The notes beneath the pieces are model-generated. The model was not told where the DNA came from and did no database searches. It was given only the letters and a program-made list of their open reading frames with translations. Shown one piece after another: positions 30,986-42,581 of a stretch of DNA of 64,000 nt (positions are counted from its first letter, which is position 1; the number at the start of each line of letters is the position of its first letter). A program made the translations under genes and the position numbers. Source of the stretch: Aliiglaciecola sp. M165 (lineage in GTDB: Bacteria; Pseudomonadota; Gammaproteobacteria; Enterobacterales; Alteromonadaceae); the NCBI RefSeq assembly GCF_007197995.1, contig NZ_VKKH01000005.1, forward strand, positions 124,001 through 188,000, given 5' to 3'.

Positions 30986-31756
30986 TTACACTCGCTTAAA
31001 TCTGCGCATTGCTAATAAGGCTATGGCCAATAAGCTAATTGAAGCGGGTTCTGGTACCTCTACCGCGTTTAAGGCAATCTCGCCACCGAAATAATTTCTT
31101 TGGGTTAAACCGCTAACGACGAATGAGTCGAGGGTATTCCCATTTCTATCGAACTGGATCATGCCTAGATTCACACGGTTATAAGCCCAAAAGGTATCGC
31201 TTGCGCTCTCATATGCTAACCCAACCAAAGACCCAGTTAAATCAAAGCTTCCCAATAGGTTACCAGACAAATCATAGTTAGAAATTGTGGAACCGAAAGT
31301 CGATATAAATAAGCTATCAGTAATAGGGTCGTAAGAGATTCCAGAGCCCGATTCGGTTAAATCAAAAAGCACACGTTGATTTGACCAATCTTCGTTAGCG
31401 ACGGTAACAGAGTTAACAACGCCGCAGCACTCAACCCCATAATTCACTCCTATGCCAGACGCACCATCGAGTAGTTGAGAAAAAGCATTACCACCAACCG
31501 ACGTATTACCCGTAGCATTGCCGGCCAAATCATACTCAGTTGCACCATTATCATCACGGTGACCCAACCATATCGTATCTCTAACAGAGATTGGATAGCC
31601 GAGATTGAAGGTGGTGTACTCATTAACTACACTCGTGCCTTGGATCTCTACCAAAATACTGGCATCACCATCAGCAAGGAAGTAGCTTTGCAATAAACCA
31701 GCATTCGCAAAACTCATGGTCAAAAAGCACGATAGACCTAACAGAAATTTTTTCAT
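30986..31756 (-). CDS. PEP-CTERM sorting-domain exported protein
   Basis: 256 residues. A signal peptide ends at FANA. The body has repeated short blocks (WLGHRDDNGATEYDLAGN, ISNYDLSGNLLGSFDLTG, IQFDRNGNTLDSFVVSG) suggesting a small beta-propeller. The C-terminus is a PEP-CTERM signal: VPEPASISLLAIALLAMRR, that is a PEP motif, hydrophobic helix and basic tail, recognised by exosortase. The likely destination is the outer surface or exopolysaccharide matrix. No exosortase or EPS gene is in the window. The function of the body is unknown. Confidence 0.9.
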   Translation of the reverse strand: MKKFLLGLSCFLTMSFANAGLLQSYFLADGDASILVEIQGTSVVNEYTTFNLGYPISVRDTIWLGHRDDNGATEYDLAGNATGNTSVGGNAFSQLLDGASGIGVNYGVECCGVVNSVTVANEDWSNQRVLFDLTESGSGISYDPITDSLFISTFGSTISNYDLSGNLLGSFDLTGSLVGLAYESASDTFWAYNRVNLGMIQFDRNGNTLDSFVVSGLTQRNYFGGEIALNAVEVPEPASISLLAIALLAMRRFKRV

Positions 31757-32349: not shown

Positions 32350-33399
32350 TTATTCCAAGTCTGAAAGCTTTATCTGTGTAACAGTATTTAACACTTGTTG
32401 ATTTTTACCCATTCCACCAATAATAAGCAATTGATCTTTATCGTTAATTAGACCTCTGTGATCCATTGTTGCGGCTTTTGTGCTGGAAATGTTCCACTTC
32501 ATTGTGTCTAGATTAAAAATCCAAACTTGGTTATCCGCCTTTGATGGCTGTCCATCATAGCCAATCCCGTTATAGTTGTATGGATTATCCGAACCACCAG
32601 CAAAATATAGTGTGTCTCCGACATGAGTGGCGGCCATTCGATAACGCGCAGTACCGGTTGGATGAGGCAGCGTGCGCCAATCAATTTTATAGATGTCGTC
32701 CGTAATTGTACCAATGTAACAGGCAGATTCGGCGGCAAATCCCCTTCGCTTGTTCGCTTCAGGCACAACTGCCACACCATCACAAACAACCATTTTATTT
32801 ACTGATATGGCACCAGCATGTCCAAATACCGGTTTGCCTAAAAACGGTGATGCCTGGCGCCAAGAATCAGTTTGGGTATCGTAAACCTGAACGAGATTCA
32901 CATTGCCGTCGTTGTGCCAACCACTGACAAGATAAATATAACGTTCTTGGTGCACCAGAGCGACAGCATCGTCTACCGGAACAGGCATCGCTGCTAATTT
33001 GATGTAGTTGTCTTGTACCACGTCATATTTAAAATTATCTGGACTGGATATTTCGGTGTGGTCTGCAGCCACCGTATAGCCACCAAATAAATACACATGT
33101 TGTTTGATGCCAACCGCAATACTTGCAAGACGACCTTTGAGTGGTAAAGACGAAGGAACTGATGTTTTTTGTTGCCAACTATTTTCACCGATTTTCAAAG
33201 CCCACACTTTATTGTGAATATCTTTGTAATCACGTCCCGCGCCGAGTCCCATCATGGAGACTAGATAGTCACCATGTTCAGTTTTTACAAAGGCTACAGC
33301 GTTGTTCGAGACAGGTTCTGGCAGCGGTGGATACGATGCATAAGAGAGGTTGATTGAGAGCAAAGCAGAGATAAAAAACGTGATTTTTTTTAATAGCAT
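32350..33399 (-). CDS. Exported kelch-repeat protein
   Basis: 349 residues. A signal peptide ends near LSYA. At least five kelch-type blocks follow (VYLFGGYTV, IYLVSGWHN, TLYFAGGSDN, LLIIGGMGKN and tryptophan-terminated turns), giving a six-bladed propeller. It resembles NanM-type mutarotases or galactose-oxidase-like propellers, but no catalytic residues can be assigned. It starts inside argE (10-bp overlap) and ends 5 bp before mgsA. A sugar-related role is possible but unproven. Confidence 0.85.
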   Translation of the reverse strand: MLLKKITFFISALLSINLSYASYPPLPEPVSNNAVAFVKTEHGDYLVSMMGLGAGRDYKDIHNKVWALKIGENSWQQKTSVPSSLPLKGRLASIAVGIKQHVYLFGGYTVAADHTEISSPDNFKYDVVQDNYIKLAAMPVPVDDAVALVHQERYIYLVSGWHNDGNVNLVQVYDTQTDSWRQASPFLGKPVFGHAGAISVNKMVVCDGVAVVPEANKRRGFAAESACYIGTITDDIYKIDWRTLPHPTGTARYRMAATHVGDTLYFAGGSDNPYNYNGIGYDGQPSKADNQVWIFNLDTMKWNISSTKAATMDHRGLINDKDQLLIIGGMGKNQQVLNTVTQIKLSDLE

Positions 33400-34535
33400 A
33401 TGTGATGGATCATCTTGTTGAGTAAGGTCACTGTTGGTGCGACATAATCCAGCGAAATGAACTCATCAGGCTGATGCGCCTGTTCAATACTACCGGGACC
33501 TAATACTAATGTATCGCAGCCCAACATATTGATAAAGGGTGCCTCGGTTGCATAGTTGGCATTTTGCATCGAAAATCCCGTCAAGGTCTCCGCTAAATCA
33601 ACAATATCGTGTTCGTTTTTACAAGCAAATGCTGGGGAAGAATCGTACATCGATGTGCGTAATATTCGATTAGGATACTGCTTATAGACGGGAGCCAACG
33701 CATCATCAATCATACGGACAGCCTGTTCATCACTTAGCCCAGGTACACAGCGCAAATCAAAATTTAATTTACAATGGCCGCAAATTCGATTCTCGGCATC
33801 ACCACCGTGCACATGCCCTAAATTCAGCGTCGCTTGAGGCACGGTAAAACTCTCATCACGATAATTCAGTGCTAAATTGTCACGTAACTCCAGCAAAGAA
33901 TGAATGGCCTTGTGCATAATTTCAATGGCATTCACGCCTTTTTCTGGGTCACTGGAATGCCCTGATTGACCGGCAATTTCAAGGCTTTGCCCCATGTGCC
34001 CCTTGTGCTTTCCTATGGGCTTAAGCTCTGTGGGTTCACCAATAATGGCCATTTCAGGCTTAATCAATTGCTGGCTTGCAAAAAAGCGCGCTCCGGCCAT
34101 GGTGGTTTCTTCGTCAGCGGTGGCTAAGATAAAAAGTGGTTTTTTAATTTTATCTAACTCTAAAGTTTGAATAGCTTCGAAGATAAATGCAAAAAAGCCC
34201 TTCATGTCACAGGTTCCTAACCCGTATAATCGGTTGTCTTGATGTTTAAGTTTAAAGGGATCACTGTTCCATCGCCCTTCATCAAAAGGCACCGTATCTG
34301 AATGTCCTGCCAGCAACAATCCGCCTTCTCCAGACCCTACTTGCGCCAACAGATTATATTTGTTTCGGGCATTGGGTACTTTTTGAATAGAAATTCTAAA
34401 ACCAATATCAGCAAAAAGATTACTTAAATAGTCGATGATCTGCTTATTTGATTGATCAATACGTTCTTCCATCGCACTAATTGACGGGATAGAGATGATT
34501 TTTTCATAAATATCTAAGAAAGTACGATTTCGCAT
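33390..34535 (-). CDS. argE: Acetylornithine deacetylase
   Basis: 381 residues, the standard length. It hydrolyses N-acetylornithine to ornithine and acetate, the defining step of the linear arginine pathway. M20 zinc-peptidase residues are visible: LLLAGHSDTVPF, the bridging Asp in LYGLGTCDMKGF, ATADEETTMAGA with the catalytic Glu pair, and GEPTELKP. The ATG has an AAGGG site. It is divergent from argC across 297 bp, and its 5' end sits against candidate ARG boxes. Confidence 0.96.
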   Translation of the reverse strand: MRNRTFLDIYEKIISIPSISAMEERIDQSNKQIIDYLSNLFADIGFRISIQKVPNARNKYNLLAQVGSGEGGLLLAGHSDTVPFDEGRWNSDPFKLKHQDNRLYGLGTCDMKGFFAFIFEAIQTLELDKIKKPLFILATADEETTMAGARFFASQQLIKPEMAIIGEPTELKPIGKHKGHMGQSLEIAGQSGHSSDPEKGVNAIEIMHKAIHSLLELRDNLALNYRDESFTVPQATLNLGHVHGGDAENRICGHCKLNFDLRCVPGLSDEQAVRMIDDALAPVYKQYPNRILRTSMYDSSPAFACKNEHDIVDLAETLTGFSMQNANYATEAPFINMLGCDTLVLGPGSIEQAHQPDEFISLDYVAPTVTLLNKMIHHICY

Positions 34536-34545
34536 AAAAACCCTT

Positions 34546-34580
34546 AATATATTTATTCACTTTTATTGCATATTTATATC
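34546..34580. promoter_or_regulatory. Candidate tandem ARG boxes (ArgR operator) between argE and argC
   Basis: Two AT-rich, partly palindromic 14-mers (34546-34559, ending in ATTCA; 34567-34580, starting TGCAT) are spaced exactly 21 bp apart, the spacing of ArgR double operators. Each matches only about half of the TGAATNNNNATTCA consensus. They overlap the expected argE promoter. Confidence 0.4.
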
Positions 34581-34672
34581 ATTAGTGGCAAGCTACGTCT
34601 ATCCAAGTGATGAAAGCAAGATCACAAATACAGATTAAACCTTATATTGACGATTGAGAACAAATTAAAAAG

Positions 34673-34729
34673 ATGACACAGAATTTTTCCCTGCCTTGCT
34701 ACGTTCGCGCATTCATGCGACGAAAATGA
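34673..34729 (+). CDS. Candidate arginine leader peptide (18 codons)
   Basis: ATG to TGA encodes MTQNFSLPCYVRAFMRRK, with arginine codons at positions 12, 16 and 17 (CGC, CGA, CGA), the last two just before the stop. It ends 16 nt upstream of a strong intrinsic terminator hairpin that itself precedes argC. An internal ATG at 34715 would give MRRK. The ribosome site is weak (AAAAAG). The Arg codons lie in a local stem (34704-34724). This layout is that of ribosome-mediated attenuation, inferred from sequence only. Confidence 0.55.
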   Translation: MTQNFSLPCYVRAFMRRK

Positions 34730-34745
34730 GACCTGTTGCGTAGCT

Positions 34746-34799
34746 CGCTCTTTACCTTTGATTTAGGGTAGTGTTCAAAGGTAAAGAGCGCTTTTTTTT
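34746..34799 (+). terminator. Intrinsic terminator in the argC leader (attenuator candidate)
   Basis: A 16-bp perfect stem (CGCTCTTTACCTTTGA with its complement at 34775-34790), a 13-nt loop, then C and eight T. It lies 33 nt before the argC ATG on the argC strand. No plus-strand gene lies upstream, since argE points the other way, so it must act on a short leader RNA or an independent small RNA. Confidence 0.88.
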
Positions 34800-34832
34800 C
34801 CACTTTTTTAAACTCTATTTTATTGGTTATTA

Positions 34833-35879
34833 ATGATGTTCAAAGCATGTGTTATTGGCGCTAGTGGATATACTGGTGCCGAATTAGCAAAACTAATTGA
34901 AGACCATCCGCACTTTGAATTAGCGGGTTTGTTTGTTTCACCAGCAAGTCAGGAAGCGCATAAACCGATAAGTGCACTACATCCTTGGCTGCAAAGTTAT
35001 GTTGATCACACGCTAGTCCCTATCAGTGATGAGAAGCTTATCGAATTGGCTGAATCTATGGATGCCATTTTCCTTGCAACCCCACATGAAGCCAGCCACG
35101 ATTGGGGCGCTATGTTGGTCAATGCCAAAGCTAAAGTATTTGATTTATCTGGTGCCTTTCGGCTCAAAGATAACAAGATTTTTGAGCAATTTTATGGGTT
35201 TAAACATGCCCACGCCACATTGCTGAACGAGGCAGTGTATGGACTAGCCGAATGGTATGCAGATGATATTGCTAAAGCGAAATTTGTGGCGGTTCCAGGA
35301 TGTTATCCCACTGCATCGCTGCTTGCACTTAAACCTCTTGCCCAGGCAGGGCTCATTGACAAACAGGTGCTACCTATTATTAACGCGGTGTCTGGTGTAA
35401 GTGGTGCGGGCCGTAAAGCGGCATTGAGCAATAGTTTTTGTGAAGTCAGCCTGCAGGCTTACGGTGTACTTGGACATCGCCATCAACCTGAAATTAGTCA
35501 GTACTTGGGTGACCAAGTCATTTTTACGCCGCACCTAGGCGATTTTAAACGAGGCATCCTTGCCACCATAACAGTAAAACTCGTCGGAAAAACAGCACAA
35601 AACCAAATCGATGATGCTTATCAAAGCGCCTATTTAGAAAGTCCGCTCATTCGCTTGATGAAGCAGTTTCCGAAATTGGATAATGTTGTTCGCACACCTT
35701 TTTGCGACCTTGCTTGGAAATTCGATCCGGGGTCTGGATATCTTGTGATCGGTAGTGCCATTGATAACCTGTTAAAAGGTGCAGCATCTCAAGCAATACA
35801 ATGCGCTAATTTAGCCTTCAATATGAAAAGCCACACCTCGTTGGCAAAACCTGCTTTGGTCGAAGGAGCAAAGCCATGA
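34833..35879 (+). CDS. argC: N-acetyl-gamma-glutamyl-phosphate reductase
   Basis: 348 residues. It reduces N-acetylglutamyl phosphate to the semialdehyde with NADPH. The nucleotide-binding start reads VIGASGYTGAELAKL; the catalytic Cys is in AVPGCYPTASLLAL, and GHRHQPEI carries the conserved His. It is the first structural gene of argCBFGH-argA. Its stop overlaps the argB ATG by 4 bp. Transcription is probably controlled through the upstream ARG boxes and leader terminator. Confidence 0.97.
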   Translation: MMFKACVIGASGYTGAELAKLIEDHPHFELAGLFVSPASQEAHKPISALHPWLQSYVDHTLVPISDEKLIELAESMDAIFLATPHEASHDWGAMLVNAKAKVFDLSGAFRLKDNKIFEQFYGFKHAHATLLNEAVYGLAEWYADDIAKAKFVAVPGCYPTASLLALKPLAQAGLIDKQVLPIINAVSGVSGAGRKAALSNSFCEVSLQAYGVLGHRHQPEISQYLGDQVIFTPHLGDFKRGILATITVKLVGKTAQNQIDDAYQSAYLESPLIRLMKQFPKLDNVVRTPFCDLAWKFDPGSGYLVIGSAIDNLLKGAASQAIQCANLAFNMKSHTSLAKPALVEGAKP

Positions 35880-41777: not shown

Positions 41778-42581
41778 ATGAAAAAATTACTACAAACTGC
41801 CCTTCTTCTAGCGTCTACGCTCTCATTGAGCGCCAACGCCGGCTTGTTGATGGCAATAGATAACAGAAACGATACCTTGGTCAGTATTGATACTGACACC
41901 TTGGCACTGACAACTATTGGGAACTTGGGGACAAACGTCGCTTTTGGCGGGCTTTCTTATGATTCCAACTCTGATACATTGTACATGGTAGGTGGGCGTA
42001 ACAACGAAAATCTCTATACTGTTGATATGACCACAGGAAATGCGTCTTTGGTGGGCTCACACGGTATCAGAGACTTATTTGCCATAGCTTTTGATACGAC
42101 TAGCGGTATGTTATACGGATCTCAATTTTCCGGTGGAACAGGTCTATTTTCATTGGATGTCAGTACGGGTGCAGCAACAACGATTAATGCCGCGATGGCT
42201 ACCGGAATAGGTGGCATGACATACAATGCTGTCAGTGACATTTTGGTTGGTATGAATGATGGAGCGGGTGATTTATACAATGTCAACCGAGCAAATGGCG
42301 ACCTCACGCTATTGTTTGATGGTCCTTTTGTCAATAATAGTGGCCTAGCGTTTGATGACGAGAAAGACGTATACTGGAGCATCGATTACAGCGGTAACCT
42401 ATTTTCCTACGATAATGGAAATGGCTTTGCACGAACCACAGAATTATCCGGATTAGGAAATTTTGATGGGCTTGCTTATATCAATGAAAGTGTAACTCAA
42501 CCCAACGATATTCCTGAACCTGGCGCTTTGGCATTATTCGCACTAGGCTTGTTAGGTTTGAGAAAGGTGCGTCGCAGCTAA
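41778..42581 (+). CDS. PEP-CTERM exported beta-propeller protein
   Basis: 267 residues. A signal peptide ends at LSANA. Repeating blocks of about 40 residues (FGGLSYDSNSDTLYMVGG, FAIAFDTTSGMLYGSQ, IGGMTYNAVSDILVGM, SGLAFDDEKDVYWSID) indicate a small propeller. The tail IPEPGALALFALGLLGLRKVRRS is a PEP-CTERM exosortase signal. It is the second such protein in the window, unlinked to any EPS cluster here. 225 bp of AT-rich DNA precedes it; its own terminator follows. Confidence 0.9.
   Translation: MKKLLQTALLLASTLSLSANAGLLMAIDNRNDTLVSIDTDTLALTTIGNLGTNVAFGGLSYDSNSDTLYMVGGRNNENLYTVDMTTGNASLVGSHGIRDLFAIAFDTTSGMLYGSQFSGGTGLFSLDVSTGAATTINAAMATGIGGMTYNAVSDILVGMNDGAGDLYNVNRANGDLTLLFDGPFVNNSGLAFDDEKDVYWSIDYSGNLFSYDNGNGFARTTELSGLGNFDGLAYINESVTQPNDIPEPGALALFALGLLGLRKVRRS

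Follow-up and report, generated by a model that had tools for sequence, protein, structure and literature searches.

Organization of the argE–argC Region

The 64,000-nucleotide stretch of Aliiglaciecola sp. M165 DNA analyzed here (the window) carries argC, argB, argF, argG, argH, and argA (NCBIfam names) on the plus strand, behind a putative leader, and argE on the minus strand. In a scan of named genomes, the closest argC, with 73% identity over the best segment, was that of Aliiglaciecola lipolytica. The original prediction had placed a terminator between the divergent argE and argC, which agrees with the NCBIfam gene names and positions, coordinates included. The features considered in this region are the following:

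33390–34535, minus strand: argE (NCBIfam NF003474), divergent neighbor of argC
34544–34582, no strand assigned: imperfect ARG-box-like stretches, a possible ArgR operator (scores of 13/16 and 12/16, not above chance)
34673–34729, plus strand: putative leader-peptide ORF encoding MTQNFSLPCYVRAFMRRK (18 codons and stop codon TGA), with the same motif in small ORFs of relatives
34698–34704, plus strand: 5′ arm of predicted hairpin 1:2 (GCTACGT), inside the ORF, with changes compensating those in the 3′ arm
34718–34723, plus strand: tandem CGA CGA codons 16 and 17, the putative conserved sensor, in frame in 58 of 71 argC-upstream regions and present in other families
34738–34744, plus strand: 3′ arm of predicted hairpin 1:2 (GCGTAGC), with compensating changes
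34738–34771, plus strand: candidate antiterminator, consisting of weak alternative hairpins (34738–34740/34746–34748 and 34752–34758/34765–34771) that would compete with the terminator, not beyond chance
34746–34799, plus strand: intrinsic terminator with a 16-bp stem (34746–34761/34775–34790) followed by eight T (34792–34799)
34833–35879, plus strand: argC (TIGR01850), first gene of argCBFGH–argA

Two predicted secreted proteins, encoded at 30986–31756 (minus strand) and 41778–42581 (plus strand) on either side of the arginine region, have C-terminal ends that we take to be PEP-CTERM-like. A methylglyoxal synthase gene (NF003559; 31925–32344, minus strand) is located near argE; by eye, a similar methylglyoxal synthase-like gene also appears directly upstream of argC in two of the loci compared below (L054 and L066), both of which lack the leader.

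Conservation of the Leader ORF and Its Tandem CGA Codons

The 18-codon ORF proved to be real and correctly placed, with arginine specified by codon 12 (CGC) and by codons 16 and 17 (CGA CGA) of MTQNFSLPCYVRAFMRRK. The predicted fold of the leader RNA (34656–34800) had an energy of −41.6 kcal/mol, as compared to a mean of −30.0 kcal/mol for dinucleotide shuffles (z = −3.64), and was more stable than 200 of 200 shuffles. Conservation was assessed in 71 regions upstream of argC, representing 69 argC loci from named genomes (some metagenome-assembled), the window, and one more member of the genus; an ORF of ≤60 codons with CGACGA in frame was counted as a leader. Such an ORF was present in 58 of the 71 regions (55 distinct contexts) and started with ATG in 56 of these 58, while 50 rounds of shuffling gave 0.58 on average and at most 2, and the reverse strand yielded 0. 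Among the nine genus members searched, the leader was found in 8/8 genomes with an argC match; the ninth genome is 59% complete. The small ORF and its arginine pair therefore passed the conservation test set in the original prediction, being kept across most of the family and, as described below, occurring in seven more families of the order. The idea that the arginine codons form a conserved sensor held for Arg16 and Arg17 only, since Arg12, present in the window's version, is not conserved.

The CGA-CGA ORF was absent in 13 of the 71 regions (L018, L029, L032, L046, L054, L055, L059, L060, and L062–L066), one of which (L032) has CGA CGT instead. In six of these regions, from Glaciecola HTCC2999-like and related genomes (L055, L059, L060, L062, L064, and L065; upstream of position 2501), a CTCCC..TAC/GTAGC-like hairpin and a terminator appear by eye to be kept without the CGA-CGA ORF and mostly without a clear start codon. 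Two leaders have unusual sequences. That of Bowmanella dokdonensis (L057; upstream of 2501) is shortened (...NFSLPERRS), has lost the spacer between motif and RR, and is followed by a different hairpin without a T-run. That of the Aestuariibacter sp. m1 metagenome-assembled genome (L052; upstream of 2501) resembles Alteromonas marina (L050) in its first half and Marisediminitalea (L049) in its second half, which looks like recombination or an assembly artefact.

When all 36 Arg-Arg codon pairs were compared alike, CGA-CGA was found in 58 of the 71 regions and the runner-up, CGA-CGT, in five; the 80 outgroup regions of the order gave 44 with CGA-CGA, as compared to three each for the two next most frequent pairs. 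In the long ORFs of the window, 142 of 724 arginine codons are CGA; in argC itself, taken over the 69 loci, the figure is 37 of 602. In an assay based on the Salmonella his leader, all Arg-Arg pairs containing CGA, AGA, or AGG were reported to cause a strong loss of attenuation (PMC4046918), and in theory the codons chosen by attenuators are those that starvation affects most (PMC1183508). That CGA-CGA is preferred to the remaining 35 Arg-Arg pairs offers a natural test of this idea.

Of the 58 leaders, 53 contain a GCTNY motif, with one copy located 17, 20, or 23 nt 5′ of CGACGA and always in the same frame. Such spacing in steps of three would not be required by a stem in the RNA alone.

Hairpin 1:2 and the Terminator

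The original prediction had noted that GCTACG (34698–34703) can pair with CGTAGC (34739–34744). Folding extended this pairing to a predicted 7-bp stem (34698–34704/34738–34744) that encloses the arginine codons. This hairpin 1:2 (GCTAYG with CRTAGC), which nearly abuts the terminator, was predicted for the window and for most of 27 hand-chosen sequences; it was not part of the minimum-energy folds of L019, L057, and L074. The two arms were identifiable in 48 of the 58 regions, giving 33 distinct arm pairs. Pairing between a sequence's own arms was more favorable than pairing between arms exchanged between species (−9.07 vs. −7.63 kcal/mol, sd 0.22), and none of 2000 permutations reached the former value, a comparison in which shared ancestry is uncorrected. 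The search for a covarying stem over the arginine codons thus yielded compensating changes, while the energy of the hairpin was only mildly below that of shuffles (mean z of −1.06 over 50 sequences). In 22 of the 58 leaders, the TAG within (G/A)TAGC, a sequence corresponding to the 3′ arm of hairpin 1:2, serves as the stop codon; 36 leaders have their stop codon elsewhere.

The terminator begins 16 nt past the stop codon of the ORF, and 33 nt separate the end of its T-run from the argC start (34833), all as originally described. A consensus terminator scan, which accepts loops of 3–8 nt, found none at the leader site; the loop of this terminator has 13 nt. By an automatic criterion, a terminator-like hairpin was present in 50 of the 58 CGACGA-bearing regions. 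The distance from the codons to this hairpin was mostly 21–45 nt, which would leave a stalled ribosome unable to cover the terminator in most family members; L021, L053, L057, and L078, with weak or misread hairpins, fell outside this range.

An antiterminator was sought in predicted folds of the RNA that would stay unoccupied between a ribosome at the arginine codons and the 3′ arm of the terminator. In the window, the best candidate comprised two small hairpins with a total of −8.6 kcal/mol (z = −0.86; 37 of 200 shuffles were as good), one of which (34752–34758/34765–34771) uses the 5′ arm of the terminator. Large folds of about −10 to −18 kcal/mol in many Alteromonas-type sequences were dropped as antiterminators, as they were on average no better than shuffles, and over 50 sequences no antiterminator beyond chance was found (mean z of −0.31). 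A covariation scan of a hand-picked set (23 Alteromonas-type and 10 window-like sequences) recovered the terminator pairs and one pair of hairpin 1:2 in the window-like set, the remaining scattered pairs being read as loop or chance; we read the same scan as showing that antiterminator-like pairings are not kept across the Alteromonas-type sequences. This agrees with the doubt already voiced about a clear antiterminator in the window.

Distribution across the Order

A first set of 40 outgroup regions was spread over families of the order before any outgroup sequence had been seen; the leader was present in 13 of these, against a mean of 0.39 and at most 2 in shuffled regions and none on the reverse strand. 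A second set of 40 came mostly from families with matches, so that the combined count of 44 of 80 is biased upward; here, shuffled regions gave 0.6 on average and at most 4, and the reverse strand again gave none. By family, the leader was found in 6/10 regions of f1 (the window's family), 2/3 of f2, 12/13 of f6, 1/2 of f10, 4/4 of f12, 3/3 of f15, 7/8 of f16, and 9/12 of f25, that is, in eight families including that of the window; the f10 match, from a single genome, could be due to chance. It was found in none of 25 regions from f3, f5, f8, f9, f11, f14, f18 (presumably the family of E. coli), f20, f21, f26, and f27. Beyond the order, regions were taken from 20 genomes of other orders of the class, mostly the best-scoring among 93 matched genomes that do not belong to the window's family; these contained no leader (0/20) and no CGACGA on either strand. 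Peptides from different families have little in common beyond R-R, which favors a reading of codons over a peptide signal; by eye, N-F-S is common to f12 and part of f1.

The structures downstream of the codons differ between families. Among 44 leaders scanned outside the named set (L074 apart) for hairpins of ≤75 nt, a scan that may miss some, nine had a hairpin over the codons, five had one further downstream, and 30 had none; no intrinsic terminator was found behind the codons in all of f25, f15, and f2 and in 9/12 of f6. In f16, the run of arginine codons itself forms the 5′ arm of a hairpin ahead of a T-rich stretch in six of seven scanned leaders, and, by eye, CGAC near the codons and GTCGG downstream were seen in all nine genomes searched, among them one that reads CGA CAA CGA and another whose T-run is poor. 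Outside f16, L074 and L158 share this arrangement, and L101 and L148 do so more loosely. This geometry suggests that a ribosome held on the arginine codons would itself block the hairpin in f16, such that stalling would mean read-through in that lineage; with the codons in the hairpin stem, a separate antiterminator (2:3) would not be needed there.

The f25 leaders (L117 and L129–L135) are uniform, with MFCHLI(C/Y)NRR in seven of eight and MFCHLFINRRR in L133. They have a Shine-Dalgarno-like AAGGGA 5′ of the ATG and no intrinsic terminator in the scan; by eye, a GCCCCT...AGGGGC hairpin follows the leader in six of the eight.

ArgR, Promoter, and Known RNA Families

Arginine biosynthesis in gammaproteobacteria, including E. 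coli, is usually described as being controlled by ArgR repression without attenuation. The reported core ArgR regulon includes argABCEFGH (PMC5343134). ArgR is encoded in the genome studied here, and two layers of control, ArgR and the leader, are likely. We do not claim ARG boxes between argE and argC, as the best score of 13/16 (plain consensus) was reached by 28% of shuffles. A promoter-like site at 34621–34648 was also set aside (one found vs. 2.1 expected by chance). No Rfam leader family matched at the gathering score anywhere in the 64-kb window; three weak Rfam matches (Spot_42 and two miRNAs) were far below the cut-offs.

Comparison with Known Leaders

T-box RNAs bind tRNA directly and have no leader ORF, unlike the element in the window. 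What the arginine T-box riboswitches of other bacteria share with it is the sensing of tRNA charging at the RNA level (PMC1262725). Repression by ArgR at ARG boxes likewise makes arginine genes answer to arginine; it acts, however, through a protein at promoters and would be a separate layer. Two consecutive arginine codons sense arginine in ORF34, the speF leader of Salmonella, but this leader has a conserved peptide domain and governs ornithine decarboxylase through Rho, an RBS structure, and RNase G, rather than an arginine-biosynthesis operon (PMC6386406). In Staphylococcus aureus rbfL, rare arginine codons in a leader pause ribosomes at low arginine, but the control is translational, blocks translation of a regulator gene, and lowers expression at low arginine (PMC13009471).

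The closest parallels are the ribosome-mediated attenuators of his, trp, leu, thr, phe, and ilv, which also combine a short leader ORF with end-product codons, a hairpin around these codons, and a terminator before the first structural gene; the leader in the window differs in responding, presumably, to arginine through two tandem CGA codons and in having no antiterminator beyond chance. With regard to the features of such attenuators, the conserved ORF and its frame point to a short leader ORF upstream of the operon; end-product codons occupy a conserved place, in both the family and the order; a hairpin with compensating changes overlaps the control codons (48 of 58 regions usable, ancestry uncorrected); and an intrinsic terminator separates the leader ORF from the first gene in the window and in 50 of 58 relatives, though the scan beyond the named set found none behind the codons in 30 of its 44 leaders. 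It also counts against an attenuator that only two arginine codons are conserved and that 13 of 71 regions have no CGA-CGA ORF. A Shewanella survey lists attenuators that respond to His, Thr, Trp, Phe, and the branched-chain amino acids, with Arg not among them (PMC3223726). In the open-access literature, which leaves most subscription journals outside, no leader peptide of bacterial arginine biosynthesis was found among the matches listed; arginine-sensing leaders were found only for other genes (speF ORF34 and rbfL). The element in the window would thus probably join the ribosome-mediated attenuators as a new, arginine-responsive member.

Proposed Mechanism and Alternative Explanations

Comparison across the family and the order strongly supports a putative translated arginine sensor, and we consider it likely, on the basis of sequence comparison, that the element at 34673–34799 is a translated arginine-sensing attenuator of the argCBFGH–argA operon. 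A ribosome translating the short leader would reach two consecutive CGA codons, a codon that is poorly read by its tRNA. When charged arginyl-tRNA is scarce, the ribosome would dwell on CGA-CGA and hairpin 1:2 could not form around the codons; this state is proposed to lower termination at the downstream hairpin, so that the operon would be transcribed. When arginine is plentiful, the ribosome would leave, hairpin 1:2 and the terminator would form, and transcription would end at about 34799. We infer that the leader is translated and that the ribosome stalls, as well as the direction in which the operon responds and the coupling of stalling to read-through. Of the original reading as an arginine attenuator, the sensing part stands (the ORF and CGA-CGA are conserved, and the stem shows compensating changes), while starvation would lead to read-through by a step for which no antiterminator beyond chance was found.

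The alternatives overlap in probability with this reading and with each other, and they are not mutually exclusive. Stalling nascent chains such as TnaC and SpeFL provide the model for one of them, in which the nascent chain (S-L-P-C-Y, five residues, R-R) would itself bind arginine or the exit tunnel and stall with no wait for charged tRNA. A motif resembling S/P-L-P/A-C/G/S-Y/F does occur 4–6 codons ahead of R-R in most CGACGA-bearing leaders of the family, but it coincides with the 5′ arm of hairpin 1:2, which can account for its conservation, and between families the peptides share little except R-R; we regard an arrest peptide as unlikely. About equally doubtful is that the leader operates differently, through argC translation, RNA decay, or Rho, with a terminator that is constitutive or ends a small RNA. 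Such a route would fit the lack of an intrinsic terminator in 30 of the 44 leaders that were scanned beyond the named set, and also the Salmonella speF leader, in which two arginine codons operate with Rho, an RBS-sequestering structure, and RNase G (PMC6386406); in the window's family, however, a strong terminator lies between the leader and argC, so that expression must include read-through.

A reversed logic, in which fast translation to the stop codon rather than stalling prevents termination, and in which a ribosome at the stop codon covers the base of the terminator in some leaders, gains from the 22 of 58 leaders whose stop is a TAG within the 3′ arm of hairpin 1:2 and from the failure to find an antiterminator. 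Such a switch would, however, turn a biosynthetic operon off when arginine is scarce; the stop codon lies elsewhere in the other 36 leaders, and the f16 geometry favors stalling as the cause of read-through, which together make this reversed arrangement quite improbable. As for a chance ORF next to an ordinary terminator, with ArgR as the sole regulator, the genome does encode ArgR and the ORF is unremarkable when a single sequence is viewed; the in-frame conservation of CGA-CGA and its recurrence in other families already disfavor this explanation, to which we give hardly any credence.

We lean toward a history in which the CGA-CGA leader was present upstream of argC early in the order and was kept in about eight families as a tRNA-charging layer beside ArgR, with an exchange of the actuator; the other families of the order would lack this layer or have lost it. 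With the same moderate leaning, the exchanged actuators would include the hairpin with a terminator seen in the window, a minimal form in which the arginine codons are the 5′ arm of the terminator, and forms without an intrinsic terminator. If the proposed attenuator is real, the charging of arginyl-tRNA would be a second, independent sensor besides ArgR, and one that responds to a different molecule; how switches of this kind evolve would be seen in the replacement of actuators around a single conserved codon pair.
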